This document shows positions 12,505 to 48,134 of a stretch of DNA of 64,000 nt, in pieces. Position 1 is the first letter of the stretch, and each line of letters opens with the position of its first letter. The notes below the pieces were generated by a model. The model worked only from the letters and a program-made list of their open reading frames with translations. It had not been told where the DNA came from and did not search any database. Origin of the DNA: Clostridia bacterium (GTDB lineage Bacteria; Bacillota; Clostridia; Oscillospirales; Acutalibacteraceae); contig JAFYVE010000053.1 in NCBI GenBank assembly GCA_017549285.1, positions 1 through 64,000 of the forward strand, read 5' to 3'. Position numbers and translations under genes: made by a program.

Positions 12505-13376
12505 TAATTGATGCGCACGCACATTTGTGGAAAAAACAGAACGGCATTGTAGGTGGTAAACCCGTTTATAACGTCGGTGGCGGTAAAAGTGATTTCGGCG
12601 GTGAAATCCGTCAGATGATGCCCGCTTATATGACAGACGGTGAAAACAGCGCTGAAAGATTTATTGCAAATATGGACTACGCCCTTGTAAACGGTGCTGT
12701 TATCACTCAGGAGTATATAGACGGTAATCAGGATAAATATCTTCTCGAATGTAAAGAGAAATATGCCGACAGACTCAGAATCTGTGCTTTGTATGAAGAA
12801 AAGCCTCTCGGTGATATGTCTTCTTTTGACGGCATTAAACTTTGTGCAGGAAGACTTCAGGATATAAATCTTCTTAATCATCTGCATCCCTTTGAAGTTG
12901 CCGCAGAAAACGGGAAATTTATTTCAATTGACCTTGCAGACGGTGATGAGCAGACAGAAATGATGAGGAAAATCGCAGAAATGTTTCCCGAACTGAGAAT
13001 TGCAGTCGGTCATTTCGGAATGGTCACAAGAGAGGGTTGGCTCAGTCAGATCAGACTTGCCGAGTATAAAAATGTGTTTATTGAAAGCGGCGGCATTACG
13101 TGGCTTTTCAATTCTGAATTTTATCCGTATCCGTCGGCTGTTGACGCAATCAATGAAGCAGCTTCTTATGTAGGTTTTGATAAGCTTATGTGGGGTAGTG
13201 ACTACCCCCGTACAATGACGGCAATCACTTATAAGATGAGTTATGATTTTATTGAGAAAACCGATAAAATCAGCGAAGCGGACAAGAAAAAATTCCTCTT
13301 TGAAAATGCAGAGAAGTTTTATGGCTTCAATAATCTTCCCACGCTTACAAAAATCAGAAATATGGTCGAAGATTAA
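12501..13376 (+). CDS. Amidohydrolase-family (cog3618) sugar lactonase
   Basis: 291 residues, Amidohydrolase_2 family. Metal-site landmarks: HAH at residues 5-7 (IIDAHAHLW), GHFG at about 171-174, and the terminal Asp motif WGSDYPR at about 232-238. Characterised cog3618 members hydrolyse sugar lactones (L-fucono-, L-galactono- or L-rhamnono-lactones). It starts in an ATGA overlap with uxaA, so it belongs to the operon. It would open the lactone made by the first dehydrogenase. Other amidohydrolase activities cannot be excluded. Confidence 0.75.
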   Translation: MIIDAHAHLWKKQNGIVGGKPVYNVGGGKSDFGGEIRQMMPAYMTDGENSAERFIANMDYALVNGAVITQEYIDGNQDKYLLECKEKYADRLRICALYEEKPLGDMSSFDGIKLCAGRLQDINLLNHLHPFEVAAENGKFISIDLADGDEQTEMMRKIAEMFPELRIAVGHFGMVTREGWLSQIRLAEYKNVFIESGGITWLFNSEFYPYPSAVDAINEAASYVGFDKLMWGSDYPRTMTAITYKMSYDFIEKTDKISEADKKKFLFENAEKFYGFNNLPTLTKIRNMVED

Positions 13377-13394
13377 TTGAAAATTAATTTCATC

Positions 13395-13423
13395 TTGTAA
13401 TATTCGGTTATCCGTGTTAAAAT
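13395..13423 (+). promoter_or_regulatory. Promoter of the GNAT_C gene
   Basis: -35 TTGTAA (13395-13400), 17 nt, -10 TAAAAT (13418-13423). Confidence 0.5.
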
Positions 13424-13456
13424 AATTTATCACTATTTTTTGGCAGAGGTGTTGTT

Positions 13457-14422
13457 ATGAAAAATTACAATCACGCATTACTTGTTATGGAGAAACACGA
13501 CTATCCTGCTGAGGCAAAGGAAGTCATTATCCGTGCAGAAGAAAAAATTCTTGCCGATGAAAAGGCAAACAAAATATATGAATCAATGTACCGAGCTTAC
13601 TGGTTGAAAAACCGTAATTTCGGTGCTTTCGGTGATAAGGTTGAAGCTCTTGCAGAGCTTATAGGTGAACATAAGTATACAGTTAACTTTGTTCTTCTTA
13701 TCAACTGCACAAAGCCCCTTCTTGCAAAGTACAGAAAAGAAAAAGTTGACGAAGAAATTTACTGGAGAAGTATTCTTGATCTTAAGTCTAAACTGATTGA
13801 GTGTAAAGAAAATTATGATATCTGGGGCACATTCGTTGAAGGTTGGTTCAAGGGCTTTTATGAAATGAACCGTTTTGCTCTGGGCAGACTTCAGTTTGAA
13901 AACTCAGATTTCGGATGCGATATGTATATAAAGAACGGTGTAGAGCTTTATGACAGTGAGTATGTTGTAGGTATGCACATTCCTTCAAATCAGGGTCCTC
14001 TTACATATGAAGCAAGACTTGATGCTTACAGAAGGGCACACGCATTCTTCAAAGATAAGTTCAAAGACCCCAGATACGGAGTATTCTGCTGTCATTCATG
14101 GCTTCTTTATCCCGATAATGTCAATATTCTTCCCGAAAAGTCAAATATCGCAGACTTCCTTCTTGATTTTGAACCCCTTGAAATCAAATGGACATATGAT
14201 TTCGGTGACCAGTGGAGAGTTTTCGGTGTGAAGAATGACAGAAAGCCCGTTGAGGAGCTTCCTCAGAACACTAGTATGCAGAGAGCATATGTTGAGTGGT
14301 TCAAAAAAGGCAAAAAGCCCGGTACTGCTTACGGAATTGTTGTTTACGACAGCGAAACAGACACAATTCTCACAAGACAGGACAGAGCTGAATTCATAAA
14401 GACATATTGTTACGAAAAATAA
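13457..14422 (+). CDS. Acyltransferase-domain protein (NAT_N / GNAT_C type)
   Basis: 321 residues. The first half is helical and charged (NAT_N-like). The second half matches the pattern I know for the GNAT-like C-terminal domain: MHIPSNQGPL, then ARLDAYRRAHAFF, CCHSWLL, LPEKSNIADF and a terminal RAYVEWFKKG. The family is predicted to transfer an acyl group, but its substrate is unknown to me. It is cytoplasmic, with no signal peptide. It has its own promoter and CAGAGGTG ribosome site, and a strong terminator follows. No functional link to the operon upstream is apparent. Confidence 0.6.
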   Translation: MKNYNHALLVMEKHDYPAEAKEVIIRAEEKILADEKANKIYESMYRAYWLKNRNFGAFGDKVEALAELIGEHKYTVNFVLLINCTKPLLAKYRKEKVDEEIYWRSILDLKSKLIECKENYDIWGTFVEGWFKGFYEMNRFALGRLQFENSDFGCDMYIKNGVELYDSEYVVGMHIPSNQGPLTYEARLDAYRRAHAFFKDKFKDPRYGVFCCHSWLLYPDNVNILPEKSNIADFLLDFEPLEIKWTYDFGDQWRVFGVKNDRKPVEELPQNTSMQRAYVEWFKKGKKPGTAYGIVVYDSETDTILTRQDRAEFIKTYCYEK

Positions 14423-14427
14423 AATCA

Positions 14428-14457
14428 GGAGCCGTTCATTGAACGGCTCCCTTTTTT
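14428..14457. terminator. Bidirectional terminator between the GNAT_C gene and cotJC
   Basis: GGAGCCGTTC/GAACGGCTCC stem followed by CTTTTTT on the plus strand and by a T-rich stretch on the minus strand. It ends both converging units. Confidence 0.85.
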
Positions 14458-15068
14458 CAGTGATTCTTTTTCATTATATCAAATGAAGGATTATACATAT
14501 AATAGTTCTTGCAGTCGAGGGCATCGGTTGCGAGTCTGAGTCCTTCACCGAAACGCTGATAATGAACAATTTCTCTTTCACGTAAGAATTTTATGGGATC
14601 GATAATATCCGGGTCATCAATCAGACGGAGAATATTGTCATAAGTCACTCTTGCTTTCTGTTCTGCAGCAAGGTCTTCGTGAAGGTCAGCGAGTGCGTCG
14701 CCCTTCGTCTGGATATATGATGCTGTCCACGGCATACCCGAAGCAGCGGCGGCATAGACGCCGTTTGTATGTGTTACAAAATATGCATCAAAGCCCTGTT
14801 TTTTGATTTCTTCGCAAGAGAGATTTCTTGTGAGCTGATAAATCATAGCACCAATCATTTCGAAATGTGCAAGTTCTTCCGTTCCGATGTCGGTCAGAAG
14901 TCCTTTGAGCTCGTCGGAAGGCATTGAATAACGCTGTGAAAGATATCTGAGCGCTGCACCGAGTTCTCCGTCAGGTCCGCCGTACTGATCCATAATGATT
15001 TTTGCATAAGCGGGGTTCGGATTTTTGATTTTTACGGGGTATTGTAATTTCTTCTCATAAGTCCACAT
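14457..15068 (-). CDS. cotJC: Spore coat protein CotJC (manganese-catalase family)
   Basis: 203 residues, normal CotJC length. It is a four-helix ferritin-like protein of the manganese catalase family; carboxylate/His residues are visible in DIGTEELAHFEMIG, LHEDLAAEQKARVTYD and REREIVHYQRFGE. It is made in the mother cell and assembled into the spore coat. It is the last gene of cotJABC, two bases after cotJB. Confidence 0.92.
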   Translation of the reverse strand: MWTYEKKLQYPVKIKNPNPAYAKIIMDQYGGPDGELGAALRYLSQRYSMPSDELKGLLTDIGTEELAHFEMIGAMIYQLTRNLSCEEIKKQGFDAYFVTHTNGVYAAAASGMPWTASYIQTKGDALADLHEDLAAEQKARVTYDNILRLIDDPDIIDPIKFLREREIVHYQRFGEGLRLATDALDCKNYYMYNPSFDIMKKNH

Positions 15069-15070
15069 CG

Positions 15071-15316
15071 TTATTCACCTTTCTCCCAGGGCCAGGGTCC
15101 CTTAACCCAATCACAGCCTTCGCCTGTTTTTGTTGAAAGGGGACCGTATTTCTTTTCGAGCTCTTCTCTGAGCTCTTTTGCTCTTGCAGTATGCTTCTCG
15201 TGCATTCTCTGAGCCGTTTTGTCGCACGGGTGGGTATCAAGATAGAGATGAAGCTCCCATGCGGCAAACTGTTCGGCACTCAGGGCATGCATAAGCTTTG
15301 TTTTTTCATTCAGCAT
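15071..15316 (-). CDS. cotJB: Spore coat protein CotJB
   Basis: 81 residues, matching CotJB (LSAEQFAAWELHLYLDTHP, ending GPWPWEKGE). An in-frame ATG at 15322 lies only 2 nt from the AAGGA site; the ATG at 15316 has 8-nt spacing and is the better start. It overlaps the end of cotJA. It is required with CotJC for assembly into the coat in Bacillus. Confidence 0.9.
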   Translation of the reverse strand: MLNEKTKLMHALSAEQFAAWELHLYLDTHPCDKTAQRMHEKHTARAKELREELEKKYGPLSTKTGEGCDWVKGPWPWEKGE

Positions 15317-15519
15317 ACGCATCTTCCTTTGAAAGGCTTGTCAAGATCGCAGAAAAGAGTTCCTCTGCAAAGAGCCGTTTCAGCGCTGTAATATGACAGG
15401 TCAAGCTGAAAGGGGACATAAGCCATTGTTGTGGTTGTACATTCGGGAAATGCCGTTTTATTGCAGTCTGAAGTTTCTTTTGTACAAGGGCAGGGTTTGT
15501 TTGTGTTGCTGTTATCCAT
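15310..15519 (-). CDS. cotJA: Spore coat associated protein CotJA
   Basis: 69 residues; Cys-rich N-terminus and the CotJA core MAYVPFQ...YSAETALCRGTLFCDLDKPFKG. AAAGGAG gives a strong ribosome site. The 81 bp between its start and the stop of the phage-like gene upstream (15600) hold no hairpin with a T-run. I saw no convincing sigma-E or sigma-K promoter, so co-transcription with the capsid genes is possible. Confidence 0.88.
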   Translation of the reverse strand: MDNSNTNKPCPCTKETSDCNKTAFPECTTTTMAYVPFQLDLSYYSAETALCRGTLFCDLDKPFKGRCVC

Positions 15520-15599
15520 TTTCAGTAGCTCCTTTTATGTATTTGAGGACATACCTCATTACATACTATGCATAGGGGGATACAGTGACACAAAAACTA

Positions 15600-16055
15600 T
15601 CAGTTTGCAGGTAATGCTGCGGGGTAATTTGAACCCTTTATAAGAATATCGCTTGTTGTGAATTTTGCTTTGAGAAAAAGCGAATCGGTGTTTCTGATAT
15701 AAACGGTTTTGTCTGTTGTAACGCCTGAGATTTTAAGAGATGTGTTGAAAAGAAGAAGGTCTGCAATTCTGTCAAGTATTGCGTTGCAGCCCATACCTCC
15801 CATTGTTCTGGGAACGTGGATGCCGACGGTGAATTCAAGCTCAACAAGTCTGTTGTTTGTTGCAATTGTGCTGCCTTCATCAACCGTGTTGTTGAGTACG
15901 GTGAATTTATCCGTTCCGAAAACAATTACGGGCTTTTCAAGAGGCGTTACTTTCAGATTTGAAGGGTACTGTGTGCAGAATGAATAACTTTCAAATTCAT
16001 TCATATCGGAAAACCATTCACATAGTCTGTCGGGTAATGTTGTGATTAAAGACAT
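15600..16055 (-). CDS. Phage head-tail completion-like protein
   Basis: 151 residues, last gene of the capsid cluster. By position and size it corresponds to XkdJ/YqbI of the PBSX family, or a gp10-type tail-completion protein. I see no firm sequence motif; the central part (LVELEFTVGIHVPRTMGGMGC) is beta-rich. AGGAG before the ATG is good. In a complete phage a tail tube or sheath gene would follow; here the spore-coat operon follows instead. Confidence 0.5.
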   Translation of the reverse strand: MSLITTLPDRLCEWFSDMNEFESYSFCTQYPSNLKVTPLEKPVIVFGTDKFTVLNNTVDEGSTIATNNRLVELEFTVGIHVPRTMGGMGCNAILDRIADLLLFNTSLKISGVTTDKTVYIRNTDSLFLKAKFTTSDILIKGSNYPAALPAN

Positions 16056-16065
16056 ATTTTCACTC

Positions 16066-16425
16066 CTATATAAAATGATTATAAGCCGGATATGTATCGG
16101 GAATACGTGCGCGTATGATTGCCCATATAAAATACACCTTATTTTTCAGGTAGATTTTTTCATAACGGTCAATGTGATAATCATTTTCGCCGTCTGATAC
16201 ATATCCGTTTCTGCCTGCCGACCCGAGGTCGAATTCGGGCGGTGCAAGAAAAAGATAACAGCCTGCTTCATTTGTTCCGATATCTGTCGGAATACCTTCG
16301 AGATACAACTTGTTTTTGTATCTCAACGGCTGAATCAGGCATCTGCTTTCGCAGATAAGATTTCCCTTGTTGTCGAAAAGAAATGCCTTTCTTCCGTATT
16401 TATGAAGTGTTTTTGCGGCTTTCAT
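16066..16425 (-). CDS. Phage head-closure-like protein (XkdI-like position)
   Basis: 119 residues. Beta-rich, with a terminal SDGENDYHIDRYEKIYLKNKVYFIWAI that resembles the end of head-closure/stopper proteins (DUF3599-like, XkdI). It lies between two other connector-like genes and is spaced 10 nt from the next. The assignment rests on order and fold impression, not on a firm motif. Confidence 0.5.
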   Translation of the reverse strand: MKAAKTLHKYGRKAFLFDNKGNLICESRCLIQPLRYKNKLYLEGIPTDIGTNEAGCYLFLAPPEFDLGSAGRNGYVSDGENDYHIDRYEKIYLKNKVYFIWAIIRARIPDTYPAYNHFI

Positions 16426-16428
16426 CTG

Positions 16429-16791
16429 TCACACCGTCCTGAAAAGAAATGAGTTGTCCTTAAGCAGAGGTGCGGCATCAACAAGGGCTGTTTCCATCAT
16501 CTGCTGTGCGGCTTTTGCCGTTTTTTCTCCGTCGGAGGTTATTGTTATGTCTCCGGCACGTACAGAGCCGCAGTCGCAGTCGTATGCATTCTTTGCAACA
16601 AGGTATCGGTTATATGCCATAGTTGCGGCAACCGTAACAAGACGGATGTCCGATGCATCAGCATCCGTCCTGATATTTTCCGAAATAACGGCTGCGGCTG
16701 TTTCGCAGTAGGGCATATAAAGAGTCTGCTCATCTTCAAAGCATTCAATGAGCTGACTGAGTCTTACAAAAACAGCCTGAGAGTCAAGCAT
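16429..16791 (-). CDS. Phage head-tail connector-like protein (XkdH/gp6-like)
   Basis: 120 residues, helical, with Ala-rich helices (RLVTVAATMAYNRYLVAKN) as in gp6-type adaptor proteins that bind under the portal. Its start overlaps the stop of the major capsid gene by one base (TGATG), so coupled translation is likely. Confidence 0.55.
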   Translation of the reverse strand: MLDSQAVFVRLSQLIECFEDEQTLYMPYCETAAAVISENIRTDADASDIRLVTVAATMAYNRYLVAKNAYDCDCGSVRAGDITITSDGEKTAKAAQQMMETALVDAAPLLKDNSFLFRTV

Positions 16792-17798
16792 CAGACAGAG
16801 AGCACCTTTGCTGCATCGGGGAAGATTTTTGAAAAACCGGCTGTGCAGGTGATTGCGGCACGTTCAAGCTGTCTGTCAATAAGCTTGTCATATTCTGTTA
16901 CAATACCACCTGCTTCAACGAGTTCAAGTGCACAGGATTTGTCAAGACCGATGATCATATCTGAAGGAACATCTGCTGATTTGATGAGTGATGCACCGAG
17001 AGGTGTGATCATATTACCTGAGCCGTGGAAATTGAGTCCTGCAGCGGCATCTCTGAATTCAGAAAGGCCGAGAAGCTTTTCTGTCATATCCTTTGAAACA
17101 ATCATTGATGAAAGTTCATAGGGTGAGAAAGAGTTCCAGAATTTAATGAGGTCTGAATATGTAAGAGTACCTGCATCTGCAGCATTGATGATTTCAGCAG
17201 CATTGTTGTTGCCGTCACCGCCTATGAGAACATTCACGGCATCTTTAAGCTGACTTCTTGCGATATAAAGACCGATCTGGCGGAGTGTGACGGTGAAAAG
17301 GTCAAGACGCTGGAATCTGATTGCTTCATATGAAGAAACAAGCATTCTGCCTCTCTTGTGAAGTGTGACAAGGTTTTCCTGAGTTCTGATTGTTGTCTGA
17401 GGAATTACTGCACCTTCGGCAACAGTTTTGAGTTCCTTATCGTCTTCTGAAGGTACTGATGTGATTGAACGGTAGTCAAGACCGTTGATGCGTGTCTTTG
17501 ATGCAACGATTTCTGAAAGCACATCTGCTTCTTCCATACCCTGTCTTACTGCTCTTGAAATGTATTCGGGAAAAAGAGCTGCAGAGTCACTTGTCTGGAA
17601 GAATTTATCAACGAAATCAGAACCCTTACCGCTTACCCTGATATCAAATCTCTTGAGCTGACGCTGGAAAGCATCAAGATTTTCAAGGGGAGTACCCTTA
17701 TAATTTTCGCTGGGGTCAAGTTCTTCAAGACAATTTGAAAAACCCTTTGATGATGCATACATACCTTTTTCAAGTTTGATGTTGTTAAAATCTGACAT
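16791..17798 (-). CDS. Major capsid protein (HK97-like fold)
   Basis: 335 residues. A helical N-terminal region (1 to about 60) is followed by a body that resembles phage major capsid proteins (XkdG-type): DFVDKFFQTSDSAALFPEYISRAVRQG, then VAEGAVIPQTTIRT, LHKRGRMLVSSYEAIRF and a C-terminal TCTAGFSKIFPDAAKVLSV. ATG at 17807 is in frame, but AAAGGA fits the ATG at 17798 (8 nt). The reading frame is intact. It would form the icosahedral shell. Confidence 0.8.
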   Translation of the reverse strand: MSDFNNIKLEKGMYASSKGFSNCLEELDPSENYKGTPLENLDAFQRQLKRFDIRVSGKGSDFVDKFFQTSDSAALFPEYISRAVRQGMEEADVLSEIVASKTRINGLDYRSITSVPSEDDKELKTVAEGAVIPQTTIRTQENLVTLHKRGRMLVSSYEAIRFQRLDLFTVTLRQIGLYIARSQLKDAVNVLIGGDGNNNAAEIINAADAGTLTYSDLIKFWNSFSPYELSSMIVSKDMTEKLLGLSEFRDAAAGLNFHGSGNMITPLGASLIKSADVPSDMIIGLDKSCALELVEAGGIVTEYDKLIDRQLERAAITCTAGFSKIFPDAAKVLSV

Positions 17799-17819
17799 TG
17801 TTATCATCCTTTCTTTTTA

Positions 17820-18161
17820 TCAGAGGATAAATCCTGCTTTGTTATTGACTGTATCAACTTCGACAACAAGATATTTTCTGCCGTCTGAATCAACAGTAAC
17901 ACCGCCTTTGCCGTCTGCGGCAAGACCGCAGAAACCGACTGAGGGAGCTGTGCCTGAGAAGTCTGTTTTTACATAGCCTTCAAGCTGAATACCTGCATAA
18001 CCGTCTTTTGTGTTTACTGCAATACCGATAAATTCATCACCTGCTTCACAGGGAGAAACGATGAGATTATCTGCCATTTTTACTGTGTGACCTGTGCAGA
18101 CAAGTCCTGTTGTTCTGAATGTGGCTGTGTTTTCGCCATAACCGTTGATTGAAAAATTCAT
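17820..18161 (-). CDS. Small phage head protein (decoration or head-fibre-like)
   Basis: 113 residues, Gly-rich and beta-rich (TGLVCTGHTVKMADNLIVSPCEAGDEFIGIAVN), reminiscent of DUF2190-type or capsid-decoration proteins. It lies between the protease and the major capsid gene, where a decoration or stabilising protein is common. AAAGGA precedes the ATG. No motif proves the role. Confidence 0.5.
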   Translation of the reverse strand: MNFSINGYGENTATFRTTGLVCTGHTVKMADNLIVSPCEAGDEFIGIAVNTKDGYAGIQLEGYVKTDFSGTAPSVGFCGLAADGKGGVTVDSDGRKYLVVEVDTVNNKAGFIL

Positions 18162-18181
18162 TGTTGATTTCCTTTCTTTTT

Positions 18182-19192
18182 TCAGATTCTGAATTGTGAG
18201 TTATCATAAAAGCTTTTCTGTTTTTCTGAAGAGAGTGCCACGGTGTACACAGCAAGCTTGTCTGCTCTGTCACCGAGTGCCTTGCGGAGCATCAGCACTT
18301 CATCACATGTCAGTTTTCCGAGAATGTCTTTGAGTATTACGGTGTCTGCTTCGGGAAGTGTGAATGCAGAAAGTGAAATAATATCCTTTTCTGCTGTTTC
18401 TCTTGTGCTTCTGCCCGTATCGGCATCTGACTTCAGAGAGTTGAGATAATTGCCGAATGCCTTTATCTGGTCGTGTGTGAGAGTAACGTTACCGCCTGTT
18501 TCATAAGCCGATTTGATGACCTCGTCGGGGTTTGCCGATGTGCAGTTAAAAACTTTTGCACTTTTCTTTTTCATTGACTTTGAAACACCTGCATTTCTCT
18601 GTGCGGGAACAGCCACAAAAGACCATTCATAAGCATCGGTCGGGTCTTCGAGGACGGCGTGGCATATTTTTCCGTCATAGACTTCACCCTGAATGTGGTG
18701 ACAGTCGCTTCTGCGCATATCTGTTCCGCATACGGAACAGATTCTTGTTCTGCAGCTGCAACTGATGCTCACTTCCTTTTTTATGCCTGCGTCAATTTCA
18801 TCGATAAGAGTTCTGTTTTTCTCCGTTCTGAGCATATAGCACCACGCTTTAAGAAAAACATAACTCTCACCCGTGAGGGTTGTTCTTGTGTCATCGGTAC
18901 ACACTTCTGTTCTGTAAATTCTTGCAGTCTGATCTGTACTTTTCATACTGTGATCAAATATGCCCGTTACACCTGTGAACATATCACAGAGTACGTTGAG
19001 TGTATTTACCGAGAATCTCTCATTGTCACGGTCTATGTCGTTATCACAGAGTGTGACGGAAAAAGTGTATATGTTGTCTTTTTCAGGAGGAGTTCTTGTG
19101 AAACGGGCAATAAGGCTGAGATCATTTTCATCGGGTACTCCTGCCTGAATATTGCCCGTAACTGCATTTTTTGTAATTATTTCTGTCTTCAT
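18182..19192 (-). CDS. Prohead protease/scaffold-like protein (XkdF-like)
   Basis: 336 residues. The N-terminal domain shows the prohead-protease pattern: TLCDNDIDRDNERFSVNTL, then GIFDHS (His at about 80) and KKEVSISCSC (Ser at about 145). A Cys/His cluster (about 146-167: CSC, CSVC, then DCHH) looks like a metal-binding ribbon. The C-terminal half (about 210-336) is helical and charged, as a scaffold would be. It starts right at the portal stop with AAAGGA upstream. The protease would mature the capsid; activity is inferred. Confidence 0.65.
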   Translation of the reverse strand: MKTEIITKNAVTGNIQAGVPDENDLSLIARFTRTPPEKDNIYTFSVTLCDNDIDRDNERFSVNTLNVLCDMFTGVTGIFDHSMKSTDQTARIYRTEVCTDDTRTTLTGESYVFLKAWCYMLRTEKNRTLIDEIDAGIKKEVSISCSCRTRICSVCGTDMRRSDCHHIQGEVYDGKICHAVLEDPTDAYEWSFVAVPAQRNAGVSKSMKKKSAKVFNCTSANPDEVIKSAYETGGNVTLTHDQIKAFGNYLNSLKSDADTGRSTRETAEKDIISLSAFTLPEADTVILKDILGKLTCDEVLMLRKALGDRADKLAVYTVALSSEKQKSFYDNSQFRI

Positions 19193-20350
19193 TCAGTTTT
19201 CCTTTCTCAGAATTTCTGTTTCGGCATTGTGCTTTTCAGCCTGTGCTTTGTAAAGCACAGCCTTTGACTGTTCTGTTTCGTCAAGAAGGGAGATTTCATC
19301 CCACACAACGGAACAGTTGTCATTAAGCCCGTTCATTCTCAGATACATTCTGCATATTCTCAGAATAACGGGAGTCAGAATGCGTCGGTAATGCCAGAGT
19401 TCGCTTGTAAGAAGGTCTGTCTGCCTGTTTGCCATTCTTTCGGATGTTGACCAGTTGAGCCCGAGCAGAAACGGAGGCAGACCCGTTTTTGCAACAATCT
19501 GTTCCATAAGCTGTCTTACGGGGATTTCAGAGTCAAGAATCTGATTGTCGGCACCTATTACCTTTATGTCAACATCACCTACTGCGATAAAGTCCTTCAC
19601 TTCATCGGATTTCATCGCTTCACTCCAGCCTGCGGCGATCTGCTTTGCCCTTTCAGCCGCATATGCCTTGTCAATAGCATCATTCTGAGGCTTGTATGTA
19701 ACGGCATATCTCAGATTGCCCATACGTTCCCAGTTGTTTCCCGTTGATTCAAAAATCTGAAGCAGAATACTGCTTACGAAGGGGAGTCCCCTGAGCAGAG
19801 AGTTGCCGTGAAGTGCTCCCGCATCGGGGTCAAGAACACCGAGAAGTATTCTTCCGTCATTTTTAACGGGGATGCATCTGTTATCAGAAACGGTGCTTAT
19901 ATTTATCTGCATCGGGTTTTCTTTGTTACGGCTGAGAATAATATTGTTCAGTTCTCCGTTGAAAAGAGAAAAAGACTGTCTGTCACGGTTCATAACCATT
20001 TCACCTACGGCTGTGCCGTAAGTGAGGAGTTGATCAAGAAACATCATTATGAATGATTCGATTCCTGTCATATTTCCTCCTACGGAAACATTTTCAAGAA
20101 AGCTTTCAAGTGTTTTTTCTGTTTTTTTATCGGGACATTCAACGGAAAATCCGCCTGTAAGTCTTACTATTTTTGAAATTGCTCCGTCAATTACGGGAAC
20201 ACTTTTTCTCAAGCTGTCATAAAGCTGTTTCTGTGCGATGAAACTTTCGGATACGGTTCCTTCATAAGAAAAACCGTTGCTGTAAAGTCTTGGTACACCT
20301 GTGACCGCAACCTCTGAATGAAGTTTGTTTTTCTGTGGAAAAAGTTTCAT
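19193..20350 (-). CDS. Phage portal protein
   Basis: 385 residues, PBSX XkdE-like portal. Landmarks: SVPVIDGAISKIVRLTGG near the N-terminus, the central LLRGLPFVSSILLQIFESTGNNWERMGN, and the portal-type stretch KTGLPPFLLGLNWSTSERMANRQTDLLTSELWHYRR. It would form the dodecameric DNA gate at one capsid vertex and dock the terminase. It starts 4 nt after terL with AAAGGA upstream. The frame is intact. Confidence 0.85.
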   Translation of the reverse strand: MKLFPQKNKLHSEVAVTGVPRLYSNGFSYEGTVSESFIAQKQLYDSLRKSVPVIDGAISKIVRLTGGFSVECPDKKTEKTLESFLENVSVGGNMTGIESFIMMFLDQLLTYGTAVGEMVMNRDRQSFSLFNGELNNIILSRNKENPMQINISTVSDNRCIPVKNDGRILLGVLDPDAGALHGNSLLRGLPFVSSILLQIFESTGNNWERMGNLRYAVTYKPQNDAIDKAYAAERAKQIAAGWSEAMKSDEVKDFIAVGDVDIKVIGADNQILDSEIPVRQLMEQIVAKTGLPPFLLGLNWSTSERMANRQTDLLTSELWHYRRILTPVILRICRMYLRMNGLNDNCSVVWDEISLLDETEQSKAVLYKAQAEKHNAETEILRKEN

Positions 20351-20353
20351 TTT

Positions 20354-21607
20354 TTAATTCCTTTCTGCCGCCAGGACAGCAAATCCGTCATTGTCTGCAC
20401 CGTAAAGTACGGTTGAAACAAAATAACGCATATCATCCATAGCGTGATCGTGTTCTTTTTTAGGAGAATCTTTTGATGATGTGTTGTCCCAACGGTAAAG
20501 CGTGAATTCACGGGTAATGTCTTTACATACGGAACAGATTTTTATTTTTTCACTTCTGAGTGCTTCGGAAACACGTCTTATGCCGTCATTTACATCATTC
20601 TTTGCAGGTATTACGGAAAATTTTCCGTGACGCCGTATGCATTCAATAAAACTTACGGCAGAAGGATCAACTATCACCTTTTCAATTGTTCTGTTTCCTG
20701 CAAGGTCACAGAGCATCTCATAGTATTCTTCATCTGTTTTCATACTGCCTTCACGTTTTGATGACCAGTAACATTCGTCAATTCTGTACCATACTCCGTT
20801 GCTCTGTCCCCATAATCCCATGGAGCAGGGATTCACCGTTCCGTAATCGCACGAAATGAAATATCTGCTGCATAGAGGAATGTCATCCGTTATATTTTTT
20901 CCGTTATCAAAAAACTGATATACAAGTCCTTCTGCGGCAACCCATTTTCCCTCAACAAACCGTTCATAGAAAGCACCCGAATAAAGCGAATGATATCTTT
21001 CAATGATTGCCTGAGATAAAGACGGATTGTCTTCCATAACGAAATGAAGATAAAGACAGTTTTTTTCTTTTGCTTTAAGTATCCATTCGTTATGAAACCA
21101 ATGGTGAGGATTTTCGGGGTTGCAGTTGAACCACAGCTTTGAATCTGCAACAGAGCATCTTGCAACAGCCTGTTCAACAAAAGAACGGGGCATAAGAGCA
21201 ACTTCATCAAGAAGAACACCTCCGAGAGTCAGCCCCTGAATAAGCGATGCCGAGGATTCATCTCTTCCTCCGAAATAATAAAACCTGTTTTTCGTATTGC
21301 CGTATTCAATTTCAACAAGACCTCTTGAAACTTTTTCACGGCAGGTAAAGCCGAGGTCTGAAAGAACGGGCAGTAACGGTGTTATTACATTTCTCCTGAG
21401 TGATGTCACCGTTTTGCCGCATAAGGCAAAAGAGGTGTCATTGAAATTCCCCATTGCCCACGCAACAAAAGAAACTGACATACAGAGTGTTTTTCCGCTT
21501 CTTACGGCTCCGTCGCAGATTATTGCATCATAATGTCTTGAACTGCTGTTTCTGCACCACCACGTGAGCACTTTCAGCTGTTTGGGTGAAAATGTAACGA
21601 AGTTCAA
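20354..21607 (-). CDS. Phage terminase large subunit
   Basis: 417 residues, PBSX-family TerL. ATPase: Walker A GAVRSGKT at about 33-40, Walker B GVLLDEVAL at about 130-138. Nuclease: DYGTVNP (Asp about 253) and VDPSA (Asp about 310), with a late acidic/His stretch HDHAMDDMRY. The start is probably TTG at 21607 in a TTGA overlap with the terS stop; no ATG lies nearby. It would translocate and cut DNA during packaging. All key residues are present, so it may be active. Confidence 0.9.
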   Translation of the reverse strand: MNFVTFSPKQLKVLTWWCRNSSSRHYDAIICDGAVRSGKTLCMSVSFVAWAMGNFNDTSFALCGKTVTSLRRNVITPLLPVLSDLGFTCREKVSRGLVEIEYGNTKNRFYYFGGRDESSASLIQGLTLGGVLLDEVALMPRSFVEQAVARCSVADSKLWFNCNPENPHHWFHNEWILKAKEKNCLYLHFVMEDNPSLSQAIIERYHSLYSGAFYERFVEGKWVAAEGLVYQFFDNGKNITDDIPLCSRYFISCDYGTVNPCSMGLWGQSNGVWYRIDECYWSSKREGSMKTDEEYYEMLCDLAGNRTIEKVIVDPSAVSFIECIRRHGKFSVIPAKNDVNDGIRRVSEALRSEKIKICSVCKDITREFTLYRWDNTSSKDSPKKEHDHAMDDMRYFVSTVLYGADNDGFAVLAAERN

Positions 21608-22083
21608 CCTGCACCACCGCCGTTTAATGCTTTTGCGCTGTTTTCAAGGGCTGTATAAAACGGTTGTGAATTATTATGCTGAGTGTTTCCCGAGAATTCT
21701 CCGAGTTTTTCAAGAGCTTTTATACGGTCAAAGAATTTTATTTCAATTCCTCCGCCTTTGACTCTCTTTATTTCCGATATGTTGAAAAAGTCAAGCGCTT
21801 CTGTGTCAATGTCTTCATAGTTGTCAGAAAGGAGCACTCTGACAGCATCTGCAGACGATGCAAAGGCAAGGCGTCTGAGGCCTGCACGGACTTCTTCATC
21901 GGAAAACGTGTTTTCTTTTTCATACTGCCCGATTGCTTTTCTGATGTCTGTTTTAGCCATCAGTTTTTTCGATGCAATCTCGGGACAGAATGTGTAGCCG
22001 GCTTTGAAAGCGGCTTCCCTTGAATTTCTGCAGGAAGCATAAAGTCTGCAGAAAAGCTCTTCTCTGCCGCTGAGTTTTTTCAT
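21604..22083 (-). CDS. Phage terminase small subunit
   Basis: 159 residues. The N-terminal part (LSGREELFCRLYASCRNSREAAFKAGYTFCPEIASKKLM) is the DNA-binding helix-turn-helix typical of terminase_2-type small subunits. It recognises the packaging site and loads TerL. GTG at 22086 is in frame; AAAGGA lies 7 nt from the ATG at 22083. First gene of the head operon; a hairpin at 22158-22188 lies in its leader. Confidence 0.85.
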   Translation of the reverse strand: MKKLSGREELFCRLYASCRNSREAAFKAGYTFCPEIASKKLMAKTDIRKAIGQYEKENTFSDEEVRAGLRRLAFASSADAVRVLLSDNYEDIDTEALDFFNISEIKRVKGGGIEIKFFDRIKALEKLGEFSGNTQHNNSQPFYTALENSAKALNGGGAG

Positions 22084-22157
22084 CACATCATCCTTTCTTT
22101 TTTTACAGTCTGCTCTTCCTGAGAGAATTTATCTCTCCACCCTTGGTCCTAACTCGC

Positions 22158-22188
22158 AAAAAAAGAAACCGTTTTGGTTTCTTTTTTT
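22158..22188. terminator. Strong symmetric hairpin upstream of terS
   Basis: AAAGAAACC-GTTTT-GGTTTCTTT with T7 on the plus strand and T7 on the minus strand, so it can terminate in both directions. On the minus strand it lies about 75 nt before the terS start, with no gene upstream for it to serve. It is either an attenuator of the capsid operon or a leftover from a lost upstream gene. Confidence 0.75.
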
Positions 22189-22282
22189 GGGTTTTTTTGA
22201 AAATGTTTACAAAAAGTTCATATTTTAAGTTGCTTTTTTGAGGAAAATAATAAAATTTGTTCAAGAAAAACTAAAAAAACTA

Positions 22283-22311
22283 TTGATTTTTATTATAAAA
22301 ATAAATATAAT
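22283..22311 (+). promoter_or_regulatory. Promoter of the YdbC-like gene
   Basis: -35 TTGATT (22283-22288), 17 nt, -10 TATAAT (22306-22311). Confidence 0.65.
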
Positions 22312-22343
22312 AATTATATACAAATTTTTCTGGAGGAATTATC

Positions 22344-22568
22344 ATGCCGGAATTTACTTATGAAATCGTAAAAACATTCGGAGTTATCTCAGAAGGTGCA
22401 GGCGGCTGGGCAAAAGAACTCAACCTTATCAGTTGGAACGGTAAAGAACCCAAATACGATATCCGTGACTGGGGTCCTGACCACGAAAAGATGGGTAAAG
22501 GTGTTACACTTACTGCTGCTGATGCAAAAGCTCTCAAAGAGCTTCTCGGCGATATTGATTTCGAATAA
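22344..22568 (+). CDS. ydbC: YdbC-family PC4-like nucleic-acid-binding protein
   Basis: 74 residues. The sequence FTYEIVKTFGVIS...WAKELNLISWNGKEPKYDIRDW...MGKGVTLT matches the YdbC family, small dimeric homologues of the eukaryotic coactivator PC4 that bind single-stranded DNA/RNA. Full family length. TGGAGGA gives a strong ribosome site. It has its own promoter and is followed by two hairpins. It diverges from the capsid operon, but a functional link is not shown. Confidence 0.85.
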   Translation: MPEFTYEIVKTFGVISEGAGGWAKELNLISWNGKEPKYDIRDWGPDHEKMGKGVTLTAADAKALKELLGDIDFE

Positions 22569-22594
22569 TACAATCAGAAAATACATATTAACCT

Positions 22595-22622
22595 GACACC
22601 ATTGCCGCCGGGTAATGGTGTC
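22595..22622 (+). other. 3' stem-loop after ydbC
   Basis: GACACCATT (22595-22603) pairs with AATGGTGTC (22614-22622) across a GC-rich 10-nt loop. It has no T-run, so it is not itself a terminator; it may stabilise the mRNA end or be part of a small structured RNA together with the terminator that follows. Confidence 0.5.
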
Positions 22623-22627
22623 TTGAG

Positions 22628-22672
22628 CCGAATTTCCGTCTGACAGCTTTCAAACGGAAAATCGGTTTTTTT
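22628..22672 (+). terminator. Intrinsic terminator upstream of the GH31 gene
   Basis: CCGAATTTCCGT (22628-22639) pairs with ACGGAAAATCGG (22654-22665) with one mismatch, followed by T7. Confidence 0.75.
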
Positions 22673-22715
22673 GTTAATATGAAATATTCTGATTAATATA
22701 CTATACAATTGTATA
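22671..22715 (+). promoter_or_regulatory. GH31 promoter and adjacent 14-bp palindrome
   Basis: -35 TTGTTA (22671-22676), 17 nt, -10 TAATAT (22694-22699). A perfect palindrome TATACAATTGTATA lies at 22702-22715 around the expected start site, a likely repressor operator. Confidence 0.5.
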
Positions 22716-22741
22716 TCAGATATATGGTGAGGTGTCTTTTT

Positions 22742-25177
22742 ATGGAACATTTTGCAAAAGCTTTCCGTGATGAAATAAGCGAAAAAACACACGACAGCAA
22801 CATTATTATAAAAAATGATGTCAGAATCAGCGTTCTTACATCAAGACTTATAAGAATAGAAAAGCAGTCTGACGGCAAATTCTGTGATATGCCGACACAG
22901 ACTGTACTTAACAGAAATTTTGACACGCCCTCTTTTGTCATCACTGACAACCGTTCGAGTTTTGCCGTAAAGACAGATGATGTTTCATTTGTTTTTTCTT
23001 CTGATGGTGAGCTTATTCAGGCTGTTATGAAGGATATGGCTGACAATGATTTCAGAAAAGGAAATCTTAAAGGCACCCGCCGTACTCTTGATATGACAAA
23101 GGGCAAAGTGAAAATCGAAGACGGTATTCTTTCCCGTGACGGTGTTGCAATAATGGATGATTCCGATACACTTGTTCTGCTTGAGGACGGAAGTGTTCGT
23201 CCCCGTGATGAGTTTCTTCGCAGAAAAGAAAACGGAAGTGACAAGTATGTTTTTGCATACGGTCACGATTACAAAGGTGCCCTGCGTGATTTCTATTGTC
23301 TGACAGGAAAAACTCCTCTTATTCCCCGTTTTACGCTCGGTAACTGGTGGAGCCGTTACAAAGCTTACACCCAGGAAGAGTATCTCACTCTTATGAACCG
23401 TTTTACGGACTCAGAAATCCCCGTAACTGTCGCAACAATCGATATGGACTGGCATTGGGTTGACATTAAAAAGCAGTTCGGCTCCGATGTCAACGACTAT
23501 ATAAAGCAGAACCGTAAAATTGACGGTATAAAGAACAATATTATGGCTGCCTTCCAGTCATCAGGCTGGACGGGATACAGTTGGAATACAGAACTTTTCC
23601 CTGATTACAAAGGCTTCCTTAAAACTCTTCAGGATAACAACTTCAAAGTGACGGTCAATCTTCATCCCTGTGACGGTGTGCGTTTCTTTGAAGATATGTA
23701 TGAAGAATTTGCAGAATTTATGGGTATTGACCCCAAAACAAAAAAAACAATTGAATTTGATATTTCGGATAAGAAGTTTACTGAAGGTTATTTTAAATTC
23801 CTTCATAATAAATATGAAAATGAAGGCGTTGACTTCTGGTGGATTGACTGGCAGCAGGGAACAGGTTCTGCAATAAAAGGTCTTGACCCTCTCTGGTGGC
23901 TCAATCACTATCACAGTATCGACCTTGCCCGTGACGGTAAAAGACCTCTCATTCTTTCACGTTATGCAGGACCCGGTTCTCACCGTTATCCTCTCGGTTT
24001 CTCCGGTGATACTCTTGTTGTATGGAGCGCTCTTGACTTTCAGCCTTATTTTACTTCAACAGCTTCCAATGCGGGGTATTCGTGGTGGAGTCACGATATA
24101 GGCGGCCATCAGATGGGCAAACGTGATGATGAGCTTTATATCCGTTGGCTTCAGTTCGGCGTTTTCAGTCCAATAAACAGACTTCACTCCACAAGCAACG
24201 AATTTCTCGGTAAGGAGCCGTGGAAATTCAGCAAAGATACAGAGCTGAATGCAACAAAATGGCTCAGATTCAGACACAGACTCATTCCATACATCTATAC
24301 TATGAATATGCTTACTCACCGTGACGGCAGACCTCTTATGGAGCCGATGTATTATGAAAATCCCGAAGATGACGAGGCATACAATGTTCCCAATGAATAC
24401 TGGTTCGGCACAGAGTTCATTGTTTCACCGATAACTGAAAAAATAAACAGAAAAACTCTCACAGCCGCTGCTTCAACGTGGATTCCCGAGGGAAGATACA
24501 CAGATATTTTCACAGGTCTTATATATGAAGGCGGCAGAAAAATCAAAATGTTCCGTGATATTTCATCAATCCCCGTTCTTGCAAAAGAAGGTGCAATCAT
24601 TCCTCTTTCGGTCAATGACAGAACAAACGACTGGAAGAATCCCGAAGATATGGAAATCCTTATTTACAGAGGCAACGGCAAATTCACTCTTTATGAAGAT
24701 GATGGCGAAACAATGAACTATAAGAACGGTGCATTTGCCGAAACACTTTTTGAGGTTGAAGAAGACGGAAATGATGTTGTTTTTACAATCAATCCTGCTT
24801 CGGGTGATATGAGTGTTATTCCTGCAGAACGTAATTACACTCTTTCATTCAGAGATATCACCGATTGTGAAAAGATTTATGCAACTCTTGACGGAAAACG
24901 TGTTTCCGTTGAAAAGAATATTGCAGACGGCACTGTTTATGTCAATATAACAGTTGCTCTCGACAGCAAGTTCAGAGTTATACTCAAAAATATAACAGCA
25001 AAGAAGAATCCTCCGAGAAAAGAGATGCTCACAGACCTTCTTTCCAAGGTTCAAGGCAGTAATAATCTTAAAATGGTGCTTTATTCAGCCTGCCTGAAAA
25101 ATTCATTCAAAGATAATATTCTTCTCGACAATGCTGTTCGTGATTCTATTAAAGAAATAATGCAAATTTCCGAATAA
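22742..25177 (+). CDS. GH31 family alpha-glycosidase
   Basis: 811 residues, cytoplasmic (no signal peptide). A beta-sandwich N-terminus is followed by the GH31 barrel: TPLIPRFTLGNWWSRY, TVATIDMDWHWV, the nucleophile Asp in WWIDWQQG (about residue 368), LSRYAGPGSHRYPLGFSGDT with the acid/base Asp (about 423), and WWSHDIGGHQMG. C-terminal beta domains follow (EDDGETMNY), and then about 60 helical residues not usual in the family. It hydrolyses alpha-linked glucose or xylose units; specificity is unknown. The start is at 22742 because GGTGAGGTG lies just upstream; the longer frame from 22709 has no ribosome site. Monocistronic. Confidence 0.88.
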   Translation: MEHFAKAFRDEISEKTHDSNIIIKNDVRISVLTSRLIRIEKQSDGKFCDMPTQTVLNRNFDTPSFVITDNRSSFAVKTDDVSFVFSSDGELIQAVMKDMADNDFRKGNLKGTRRTLDMTKGKVKIEDGILSRDGVAIMDDSDTLVLLEDGSVRPRDEFLRRKENGSDKYVFAYGHDYKGALRDFYCLTGKTPLIPRFTLGNWWSRYKAYTQEEYLTLMNRFTDSEIPVTVATIDMDWHWVDIKKQFGSDVNDYIKQNRKIDGIKNNIMAAFQSSGWTGYSWNTELFPDYKGFLKTLQDNNFKVTVNLHPCDGVRFFEDMYEEFAEFMGIDPKTKKTIEFDISDKKFTEGYFKFLHNKYENEGVDFWWIDWQQGTGSAIKGLDPLWWLNHYHSIDLARDGKRPLILSRYAGPGSHRYPLGFSGDTLVVWSALDFQPYFTSTASNAGYSWWSHDIGGHQMGKRDDELYIRWLQFGVFSPINRLHSTSNEFLGKEPWKFSKDTELNATKWLRFRHRLIPYIYTMNMLTHRDGRPLMEPMYYENPEDDEAYNVPNEYWFGTEFIVSPITEKINRKTLTAAASTWIPEGRYTDIFTGLIYEGGRKIKMFRDISSIPVLAKEGAIIPLSVNDRTNDWKNPEDMEILIYRGNGKFTLYEDDGETMNYKNGAFAETLFEVEEDGNDVVFTINPASGDMSVIPAERNYTLSFRDITDCEKIYATLDGKRVSVEKNIADGTVYVNITVALDSKFRVILKNITAKKNPPRKEMLTDLLSKVQGSNNLKMVLYSACLKNSFKDNILLDNAVRDSIKEIMQISE

Positions 25178-25185
25178 GAATTGAA

Positions 25186-25212
25186 ATGGGCCAAAAACCG
25201 GCCCATTTTTTA
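25186..25212 (+). terminator. Intrinsic terminator after GH31
   Basis: ATGGGCC-AAAAACC-GGCCCAT stem-loop followed by T-rich sequence. Confidence 0.8.
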
Positions 25213-25273
25213 TTCTATCTGCACAAAAATATTGTAGTACCTTAATTTACAATAGACATAAAATCTTTCATTG

Positions 25274-25328
25274 TTGACTTTTTTCTGTTTCTGAGTTATA
25301 ATACCGATGTATATCATGAAGTGATATA
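25274..25328 (+). promoter_or_regulatory. Promoter and candidate operator of the NAGPA/phosphoesterase gene
   Basis: -35 TTGACT (25274-25279), 17 nt, -10 TATAAT (25297-25302). An inverted repeat TATATCA-TGAAG-TGATATA (25310-25328) follows directly and could bind a repressor or form a leader hairpin. Confidence 0.65.
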
Positions 25329-25355
25329 AAAAAATAAAAGAAAGGAATTACAATT

Positions 25356-28300
25356 ATGAAAACGAAATTGAGACTTAAATCAGGTCTTGCATTACTTCTT
25401 ACATTAGTAATGCTGTTTTCTGTAATGACTCCTATGATGTCTTTCACGGCAACAGCTCTTGAAGTTGATGTTGAGAATATCGGTGCAAACACCAAGCTCA
25501 CATCAAAGACTGATTATGCTGTGGCTCCCGGCATCACAGAATCTCACATCATCACACACAATAAGGATGGTTCAAATCAGGTTCAGTCTTATGCTCTTGA
25601 AATTGATCTGAATAATCCTAACGTAGGTCTTATCGCAGGCTTTAAAAACTACATGAACGATCTTGCATCAACTCCCGAATGGGGTATGCAGACCGTACGT
25701 GATCAGGCAATAGCTGCAGAGGACTATCACAAAACAACACTCAACAAACCCTACTTTGAAGTTGTCGGCGGTATCAACAGTGACTTCTTCGATATGACAA
25801 CAGGCAGACCTCTCGGCTCGCTTGTTATGAACGGTGTTCAGTATCAGGAAACAACAACAGGCTACAACAACTCATATTTTGCTATTCTTGAAGACGGTAC
25901 ACCCGTTATCGGTTCAGGTGAAATTCCTGAAAATGCAAAGGAAGTTATCGGCGGAAGCAACATCCTTGTCAAGGATGGTATTATTGACCCCAATATCAAG
26001 GATAATCCCGACGTATTCCCCAGATCATCAGTCGGTATCACAGCTGACGGCAAGGTTATCCTTGTAACAGCTGACGGACGTCAGGCTCCTTCATCATGCG
26101 GTCAGACATTGGAAGAAAATGCTCAGCAGATGCTTTCTCTCGGTTGTGTGACAGCTATGCAGGTTGACGGCGGCGGTTCTGCAACTCTTGTTTCACAGCG
26201 TGAAGGCGAAACATCTCTTTCAGTAAGAAACAGTCCTTCAGACGGTATCGATAGAATTGTTTCAACATCACTTCTCGTTTATTCAAACGCAACACCCGAC
26301 GGTGTATTCCATCACGCTAATCTTGATCCCGTAAACAAGCTCTACACACCCGGTTCAACTGTAGAATTCTCAGCAACAGCTGTTGACGGTTCAGGTGCAA
26401 CAGCAGAGCTTCCTGCAGAAGGCTTCTTTGCTCTTGCAGATGAAACAGCAGGTATAATTGAACCCACAACAGGTGTATTCACAGCAGCAGCTGACTTCAT
26501 AGGCGACGTTGTTGTCAATTATATGGTCGGTGAAGAAGTCAAGGGTACAACAACAGTCAAAATTGTTATCCCCGACGAACTTCATGTTGCAAACACAGAA
26601 CAGGCAGTAGGCCCCGGTGTCACAACAGACTTTGGTATCGTTGCAAAGTATCAGGACAGAGATGTCAAGATGAAGGCAGGCGATATTGAATGGGCAATCG
26701 CTCCCCAGAATACTTCCGCAACAGAAGAAAATACATGTTACGTTTTAGTCAGAACAGAGAATTTTGATGCTTACAGTGACAAAGCTATATTCGGTAAATA
26801 TCCGAAAACATCCGAATACAAAACTAACTACTATGTAAAGACTCCTGTTGTTATAAGTAAGGACGATGATTATGCAATTATAAAATATATTGCACGTTCT
26901 CCTTCATACCCTGATTGTGACATTGACTCCATTATCAGAGACAATATTGTCGGGGATGCAAATATTCTCGCTTACGGATATGTTCCCGAAACATTATACT
27001 TTGATGCAGGCTTCGCCGGCTCATTCAACGGTCTTACTTTTACAGGCGCTTCCGAAGGCTCTTACAACGCTCGCATTACAGCAAAACTTAAATGCAATGA
27101 CGGAATTGATCCCCTTGAGCTTACAGTATTTATCGGTTCAAAGCAGACTATGATGTATGACTTTGAATATGTAACAGGTGATGAAAATAAGGATGCAGAA
27201 AACTACATCCCCTCATTCACACTTCCCACATACGGTAAACAGTGGCTTACTGATAACGGTGAATCGAACGGAACAATATCAGCTAAGCTTTATGAAGAAG
27301 GCATGCCTCTTTATATGTGGCCTAACGGTGCTATTTCAAATGATACAGTTTCAGCAGAAATCGTTTCTGCGGCAGACGGTGAACCTGTACGTTTCGGTGA
27401 TAAGTCTCTGAGAATTTCATTTGACTTCGCATCATATCAGTCAGGTCAGAACGGTAACTTCTATCTTCGTGTTACTGATCCTCTTTATAAGTTTGAAGGC
27501 ACTCCCACAGCAATGGGTTGTTGGGTATATGCTCCTGAAGGAACAACAGCATATCACCTTTATCTTCAGTGTGCAAGTAATGTTGACCCCATTGCAGGCA
27601 CATACGGTTCAACATCTTACCAGCAGCTTACTTCTCCCGAAGCTATGGGCACAGACAAAGCCGGTATCAGCTGGACAGGCTGGAGATATCTTGAATTTGA
27701 CCTTACAGGTCTGAAAAATTATTCAGGTAAAATCAATGTCGGTGGTTCATACGAGCCTTACGGTATGTATCAGTCAAATGGTGTTTTCTGGATTTCATAC
27801 CAGCCCTCAAATATGGGTGAAAACGTAACAGCCGATACAATTTACGTCGACGATATCACTCTTATCTATGGTGCAAACACATCAGATACACATAATCCTG
27901 TCATCAACTATGTAGGTGACTTTGCCGAACAGATTGTTGACGGTAAAACAGTTTATACTTCAAATAGAAATACATTCAAGGCTCAGTATGCTGACTTCGT
28001 AGATAAGTATATGACAGGTATCGATGATACAGCAACAAAGATGTACATTGACGGCGTTGATGTTACACCTATGTGCTACATCGATGAAGGTAACGACGAA
28101 ATCTATTTCTATGATGCTGTTCTTCCCGACGGTGAACACGTTATCGAAATTGAAGTTGCTGACGTATTCGGCAATAAGACAACAGAAATGAGATACTTCA
28201 CAATCGACAGCGATTCTGAAGATACAGAGGTTGCTTTTGAAGCAGCAAACACTCCTGTTCTCGGTGAAGATTATATCATTGATATCGTTACAAACAATGC

Positions 28301-48107: not shown

Positions 48108-48134
48108 ACCCCACTATTTCAGGAGGATTTTTTT

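Follow-up and report, generated by a model that had tools for sequence, protein, structure and literature searches.

Nine intact phage head genes without a tail in a Clostridia genome: probably a domesticated, DNA-packaging operon resembling a gene transfer agent

Phage head genes that stand complete in a bacterial chromosome with no tail beside them raise the question of whether they are the remains of a prophage or a structure kept by the host lineage for a use of its own. Such a set lies in the first 64,000 nucleotides of contig JAFYVE010000053.1 (assembly GCA_017549285.1, Clostridia bacterium, Acutalibacteraceae), hereafter the window, in which nine adjacent minus-strand open reading frames (ORFs) fill positions 15600-22086. 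The block is probably a domesticated, vertically inherited head operon whose products would form a DNA-packaging and secondarily tailless particle resembling a gene transfer agent (GTA). From the first gene to the last, the block comprises:

21604..22086, minus strand: TerS, small terminase, 160 residues (PF03592 8e-13, phrog_51 7e-14), with a GTG start (alternative ATG at 22083) and an N-terminal helix-turn-helix (HTH)
20354..21607, minus strand: TerL, large terminase (ATPase motor and nuclease), 417 residues (PF03237 7e-13, PF17289, phrog_2 4e-44)
19193..20350, minus strand: portal, 385 residues (phrog_30703 4e-120)
18182..19192, minus strand: protease-like protein with a Cys/His cluster, 336 residues (phrog_16951 1e-94, function unknown)
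17820..18161, minus strand: capsid decoration protein, 113 residues (phrog_4588 4e-23); its own profile matches 58/107 loci of the set described below
16791..17807, minus strand: major capsid protein, 338 residues (PF25209 1e-18, phrog_3922 6e-106)
16429..16791, minus strand: h7, putative neck/connector by its place, 120 residues; profile found in 92/107 loci
16066..16425, minus strand: h8, putative neck/connector by its place, 119 residues; profile found in 87/107 loci
15600..16055, minus strand: h9, putative neck/connector, 151 residues; in alignment its C-terminal end is the fusion point of a tail-fibre domain in 22 other loci

All nine frames are open in the ORF list of the window, and each gene either shares 1-4 bases with the next or is separated from it by a gap of 0-20 bases, so that the original prediction of nine consecutive, intact and tightly packed head genes is borne out. 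Its further claim, that no tail, lysis, integration or replication gene lies on either side, agrees with the absence of all four types from the 39 flanking ORFs scanned, a subset of the ORFs of the window (29 with Pfam and 10 others with PHROGs).

The block is not confined to one strain. A portal search of 60 related genomes matched 27, namely ten of the 11 genomes of the window's genus (its own included), 16 of the 26 others in the family and one of the 23 from other families; among the ten genus matches G002 and G010 are divergent. The full nine-gene block is present in the same order in 8/11 genus genomes, i.e. the window and seven other species, and is followed by a tail gene in none of the seven that are readable beyond h9. 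Neither restriction to a single strain nor a full prophage at the site, the outcomes named beforehand as speaking against a selected head set, was found in the genus genomes. In larger samples the portal profile matched 176 of 300 family genomes (150/229 of good quality; 80/135 genera), with one copy per listed genome, and 70 of 394 genomes of the order; of these, 35 belong to the family itself and 35 are spread over five further families (f14, 20; f26, 11; f15, 2; f7, 1; f2, 1). The order sampled is presumably the Oscillospirales of GTDB. Across the class, strong portal matches occur in 8/391 genomes, all inside the order; outside it four further genomes show only weak matches over 58-84 residues. 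Scanning named genomes with TerL yielded at least 576 relatives, of which the best 80 are mostly uncultured Clostridia metagenome-assembled genomes; the isolates among these 80 are Anaerotruncus massiliensis AT3 and Faecalispora jeddahensis JCD. In both isolates the genome has baseplate and fibre genes as well as the head genes, in JCD on separate contigs.

A recent source in complete phages was considered and rejected, none of the best 80 of 329 IMG/VR relatives being on a contig longer than 30.8 kb. The 26 IMG/VR relatives with more than 9 kb of sequence show the same short cluster. The head operon also occurs in two faecal records submitted under the name 'Bacteriophage sp.' (L154, MT835508.1; L156, MT835769.1). 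MT835508 is host chromosome with the head operon near ribosomal protein genes, the latter recognised by eye; its bearing on the packaging of host DNA is suggestive only, and would be greater if the DNA had been obtained from purified particles.

Inheritance of the block largely follows that of its hosts. A head tree built from TerL, portal, capsid and the protease-like protein of 27 genomes shares 13/24 splits with the rpoB tree of the same genomes, against a mean of 0.17 and a maximum of two for shuffled trees. Path distances in the two trees correlate with a Mantel r of 0.815, and of 0.607 when each genus is represented by a single genome (n=20), with 0/9999 permutations as high in each case. 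Within the genus the capsid protein has a mean identity of 82%, and 72/72 ORFs are near full length in eight species; ORF calling itself makes the frames open, and it is their length that is informative. Nor would nine open genes be expected by chance, since in none of 300 runs of a neutral simulation, in which the window copies diverged by 5%, did every one of the nine frames stay open. Median ratios of nonsynonymous to synonymous substitution rates (dN/dS), taken pairwise within the genus over 28 pairs, of which dS was computable in 12-27 and was high, are far below 1 for all nine genes: TerL 0.077, capsid 0.10, portal 0.15, protease-like protein 0.16, TerS 0.18, h9 0.20, h7 0.24, h8 0.27 and decoration protein 0.30, with rpoB at 0.059. 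TerL is thus the most constrained gene of the nine. The suggestion that retention of exactly the head set reflects selection is upheld by these ratios (0.08-0.30), by the congruence of the trees and by the distribution, and the same evidence, with the conservation of the block, supports a GTA-like DNA-packaging particle among the possibilities first raised.

A decaying prophage whose head genes were kept by accident is an unlikely explanation for such a pattern. It would account for the lack of any tail gene at the locus and of tail, lysis and replication types in the scanned flanks, and two genus genomes could be cited in its favour, G008, which has no portal match, and G010, in which the set is reduced and broken. 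Against it stand the near-full length of every gene in eight species, the purifying selection across those species and a gene order kept across many genera. True decay, as in G010, has a different look.

The tail state was compared over 107 loci (the window, 26 relatives and 80 from named genomes), of which 85 could be classified; of the others, 11 had no capsid or portal gene in the available sequence and 11 were too short. The classified loci can be grouped into four categories. Group one, with a baseplate, includes 36 loci, in which the head genes are typically followed by genes for tube-like, LysM, hub, spike-like, gp25-like wedge, Baseplate_J, Gp48 and fibre proteins. The order, described in the original prediction as like that of PBSX, a defective phage of Bacillus subtilis, is a better fit to these relatives, in which the baseplate genes are arranged like XkdP-XkdU of PBSX. 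Group two, with a hub only, includes five loci. Group three, with h9 fused in frame to a tail-fibre domain and no tail gene seen, includes 22 loci (L044, L047, L048, L060, L066, L068 and 16 others), two of which, L093 and L115, extend less than 3.5 kb beyond the capsid gene and could have tail genes further on. Group four, comprising the head only, includes 22 loci. Profiles of the separate fibre proteins match the C-terminal part of 18/18 fused proteins tested, and the reverse search matched in 12/12. The fusion could give a tailless capsid a neck that binds receptors.

On a tree of 83 loci (L059 and L119 were dropped as repeats of genomes already in the set), five changes between the tail-less and the baseplate state are counted over 78 loci, the hub-only loci being left out. 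The tail-less state is stable within clades and occurs in several separate ones, and all 14 loci of the window's clade are fused or head-only. Over the 176 portal-positive genomes, Baseplate_J is strong in 99, weaker only in seven and not found at 1e-15 in 70. The lineages range from a sheathed tail, through a baseplate only and a neck bearing a fused fibre domain, to a head with nothing attached. At the sheathed end, a Pfam-confirmed sheath is present in two loci of other families (L189, 14336-15382, 1e-13; L191, 14209-15264, 9e-8). Among 142 clusters, 12 same-strand ORFs of at least 250 residues are unexplained by any profile, and ten of these are sheath-like by place and an RPGV start (in the confirmed L189 and L191 and in L187, L190, L216, L226, L232, L233, L240 and L280); none of the ten is in the 107-locus set. 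The other two are a 520-residue frame in L187 that overlaps the sheath and is probably spurious, and an ORF of 251 residues in L280. No credible ORF of tape-measure size was found in the 142 clusters. With a sheath and no tape measure, the length of a contractile tail would be set in some other way. In two loci of family f26 (L185 and L192) the head genes are followed by two tail-like genes, one P-like of 112 residues and one for a hub, and then by other genes, which makes this another kind of reduced cluster. A distant phage contig (L003) holds homologues of the portal, protease-like, decoration, capsid and tube proteins together with a tape measure, and the ancestor of the element was therefore probably a tailed phage. 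An old domestication, with the tail reduced to an extent that differs by clade, is well supported, and loss is the probable direction of the changes.

The genus of the window lies at the bare end of this range. No sheath, tube, tape measure or baseplate gene is present at the window locus. Baseplate_J and fibre profiles, which were built from the present element and may miss distant types, have no match in the window's own genome, a draft that is 88% complete; in the genus Baseplate_J is found only in G001 of 11 genomes, as distant copies, and the fibre in 0/11. The tape-measure family PF10145 is without a match in 7/8 genus genomes tested, G001 alone being positive. Both tail markers being lacking, no resident tail donor is seen in 7/8 genus genomes. 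As far as the draft genomes tell, the genus appears to be head-only, with neither baseplate nor fibre.

These data bear on a second explanation, put forward in the original prediction, by which the block is a tail-borrowing satellite or a domesticated relative of the capsid-forming phage-inducible chromosomal islands (PICIs) that takes its tails from a helper phage. Capsid-forming PICIs are mobile, possess an integrase and regulators, and have head and packaging genes of their own without a tail. The head-only set resembles theirs, and a foreign tail could be joined through h7-h9. However, no integrase, phage-type regulator or replication gene is among the scanned flanking ORFs, the ydbC side of the locus is conserved in the genus (6/7 species), many relatives carry baseplate genes of their own, and Baseplate_J is lacking in 10/11 and PF10145 in 7/8 genus genomes, so that these two markers show no resident tail donor. 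With no tailed prophage by the two markers in 7/8 species, the satellite is as improbable as the remnant and this part of the prediction is not sustained.

A third explanation is that of a split GTA, with its tail or baseplate genes and its lysis genes at another site in the genome. The GTA of Faecalibacterium prausnitzii (FpGTA) offers a precedent, in that about 125 kb separate its operon II (baseplate, fibre and lysis) from its operon I in one of the strains, according to the account in PMC12946183. Against a counterpart here, the element's Baseplate_J and fibre profiles are without a match in the window's own genome and in 9/10 other genus genomes. A second locus could be very divergent or unbinned; the split arrangement as a whole is doubtful, and more so than either the remnant or the satellite.

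Further support for a domesticated, DNA-packaging operon comes from the packaging motor. TerL of the window is 50% identical over 401 residues to the solved terminase of phage D6E (5oe8). For D6E TerL, R44 is described as the P-loop arginine, E143 as the catalytic glutamate and R158 as the trans-acting arginine finger (PMC5727402). These residues correspond to R36, E135 and R150 in the window, if the published numbering and that of the PDB chain are taken to differ by 3, as was done in the present analysis, and are invariant in 21/21 TerL sequences. Also invariant in 21/21 are D254, D314 and D391, which we take to be the nuclease aspartates. The predicted retention of Walker and nuclease residues is confirmed to this extent, and by its residues the DNA-packing motor is complete. 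A protein compartment or a capsid with non-DNA cargo, another of the original suggestions and one with which the keeping of head genes without a tail would agree, is very improbable in view of the retention of TerS, TerL and portal and of a TerL that keeps its ATPase and nuclease residues as the most constrained gene of the block.

Other head proteins are less readily placed. The product of 18182-19192 is protease-like: H81, S142, C145, C152, C155, C164 and H166 are invariant in 25/25 aligned sequences, and the position of the gene together with invariant H81 and S142 suggests a protease role. To that extent the name maturation protease, given in the original prediction, can stand; its only convincing match is to phrog_16951, of unknown function. 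Pfam gave no family in common for the protease-like proteins (five families, each matching 1/25 members), and the phage protease family PF04586 has no match in the window's own genome. Sequence searches of the PDB gave nothing convincing for the protease-like and h9-fibre profiles and zero matches for the portal profile and the window capsid. No convincing family was found for h7, h8 or h9 in Pfam or PHROGs, the best match being of h9 to phrog_25177 (0.004), and the three are counted as members of the block because of their conservation.

Taken together, a domesticated head operon might have arisen and might work as follows. A phage, probably with a contractile tail, would have been captured by the host lineage; the baseplate would then have been lost in parts of the family, with in-frame fusion of h9 to a tail-fibre domain in some lineages. 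The products of the block most likely assemble a small capsid with portal and neck, which the TerS-TerL motor would fill with DNA, probably that of the host. Cells could benefit through release of the particles at lysis for uptake by kin, or through an action inside the producing cell. A more tentative proposal, which we consider possible without favouring it, is that the tailless head is itself the selected unit, a chromosome-filled capsid without an injection device that serves as a DNA capsule, either released by lysis or intracellular.

Several points weigh against a domesticated, DNA-packaging head operon. The particle, its DNA content and its expression are predictions made from the genes. 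Tree congruence is weaker in its parts, with TerL alone sharing only 7/24 splits with the rpoB tree and capsid alone 9/24; for the capsid the one-per-genus correlation is weak (496/9999), and within the genus (n=8) the head-rpoB distance correlation is not significant (1257/9999). G008 has no portal match, and G010 keeps only TerS, TerL and a portal with stops, with no capsid gene in the 20 kb read. No delivery device (baseplate or fibre) is found by profile in the window's own genome, which would leave a tailless particle without an evident route of delivery, and the absence of a baseplate rests on draft genomes that are 83-99% complete for the block-bearing genus members. No lysis gene is linked to the block in the flanking ORFs scanned, the search for lysis genes being confined to these. 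Finally, loss of the HTH domain of TerS has been proposed as a GTA-type trait and is described for RcGTA (PMC6854486); TerS of the window retains its HTH and so lacks this trait.

The TerS trait is nevertheless common among relatives. The 101 complete TerS include 32 shorter than 140 residues and 69 long ones. An N-terminal HTH was not found in 29/32 short TerS, nor in the DNA just upstream, vs its presence in 57/69 long TerS. Examples of about 105-112 residues without a DNA-binding domain are found in L054, L086, L087, L088, L094 and L099. The 12/69 long TerS without an HTH match, of which L033 and L038 belong to the window's genus, are probably due to over-long start calls. Baseplate_J is present in 21/32 short-TerS loci vs 13/69 long-TerS loci. 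With the HTH kept, random packaging does not follow for the window, and a preference for a packaging site may still be present.

The surroundings of the block are of host character: sugar-metabolism genes, the cotJ spore-coat operon, ydbC (PC4), glycosidases, CotH and GerA-type germination genes. Base composition shows no break between block and flanks, and no Rfam RNA family was found within 13000-26000. The original prediction placed the locus between ydbC and cotJ. The ydbC side holds, ydbC adjoining TerS in 6/7 other species of the genus, three of which have a gene of glycoside hydrolase family 31 next in line. The cotJ side does not, being common to 0/6 species with a readable other flank (the contig of G004 ends there). 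Two features lie upstream of TerS:

22205..22220, minus strand: candidate control element, TGAAC-N4-TGTAAAC
22151..22193, minus strand: hairpin followed by a U run, between this element and TerS (fold z-score -3.0, from the window sequence only)

The motif TGAAC-N4-TGTAAAC is found upstream of TerS in the same orientation in 8/8 genus species with the full block, with no mismatch in four and 1-3 in the other four, and with 1-2 mismatches also in L041, L060 and L063. It is the sole match with at most two mismatches in the window; a looser pattern gives six matches vs 2.6 expected. A LexA/SOS box was tried as an identity for the motif and rejected, as GAAC-N4-GTTC with at most one mismatch occurs 30 times in the window vs 27.2 in shuffles and the right half is missing. 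The hairpin is possibly a leader terminator.

Elsewhere in the window, a PHROG match at 48057-48731 is to a LexA/UmuD-like repressor, probably the host LexA. At 58264-60953 a release-factor-like gene and its neighbour match PHROGs of unknown function (phrog_19918, 2e-141; phrog_27533, 3e-92). The region 25356-32117 encodes a protein of 2253 residues that combines a phosphodiester glycosidase, a metallophosphatase, choline-binding repeats and a dockerin, and a CotH-dockerin protein adjoins it.

Comparison with known systems places the block nearest to the GTAs. Phage D6E (GU568037) shares the TerL likeness given above; unlike the present element, it is a complete phage of 49 kb that has a tape measure, a baseplate, a holin and a lysin. 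PBSX packages host DNA and has a full contractile tail, a tape measure and lysis genes. The baseplate genes of relatives resemble its XkdP-XkdU order, whereas the contractile tail with tape measure and the lysis genes set it apart. Capsid-forming PICIs differ in that no integrase module was found in the scanned flanks of the window and the inheritance of the present element is vertical.

The RcGTA of Alphaproteobacteria derives from another phage lineage. Of the features of GTAs, the window shows a structural cluster without replication or integration genes in the scanned flanks, vertical inheritance and purifying selection. In the accounts given in PMC6854486 and PMC11841831, RcGTA-type GTAs likewise combine vertical inheritance, a structural cluster and clade-wide spread, being present in 57.5% of 1423 genomes (PMC11841831), and are reported to show no preference for packaging their own genes (PMC6854486, PMC11841831). 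The TerS without HTH described for them is matched in part of the present relatives (PMC6854486). RcGTA differs from the window in having a tail and in its TerS, that of the window keeping its HTH.

The closest described system is FpGTA, reported by Borodovich et al. (Nature Communications, January 2026; PMC12946183), the likeness being one of description and gene content, with the window represented by its genes alone. In that account FpGTA has a compact head operon and forms 40-nm particles without visible tails that hold about 9 kb of DNA, and a second locus with baseplate, fibre, holin and endolysin is present in 5/12 strains (PMC12946183). Shared with the present element are the compact TerS-TerL-portal-capsid operon and, so far as described, the lack of replication genes, and the FpGTA TerS has no obvious DNA-binding domain according to the same source, as in 29/32 short TerS of relatives (PMC12946183). 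The FpGTA host belongs to the same NCBI family (Oscillospiraceae) as one isolate carrying the present element. By contrast, profiles found no baseplate or fibre gene of the present element in the draft genomes of the window's genus, and a scaffold protein is reported for FpGTA (PMC12946183). A literature search, bioRxiv being outside its scope, gave no further publication that deals with GTAs of these families. If the present reading is true, GTA-like DNA packaging would be an inherited trait of a large order of gut bacteria, beyond Faecalibacterium, and some of the packaging of host DNA in short fragments that PMC12946183 reports for human faeces could be traced to a cause at the level of genes. 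The range from baseplate through fused to bare head would also let the use of a non-injecting, DNA-filled capsid be tested. Order-wide distribution, tail reduction and fusion of h9 to the fibre extend beyond FpGTA as described in that account (PMC12946183).

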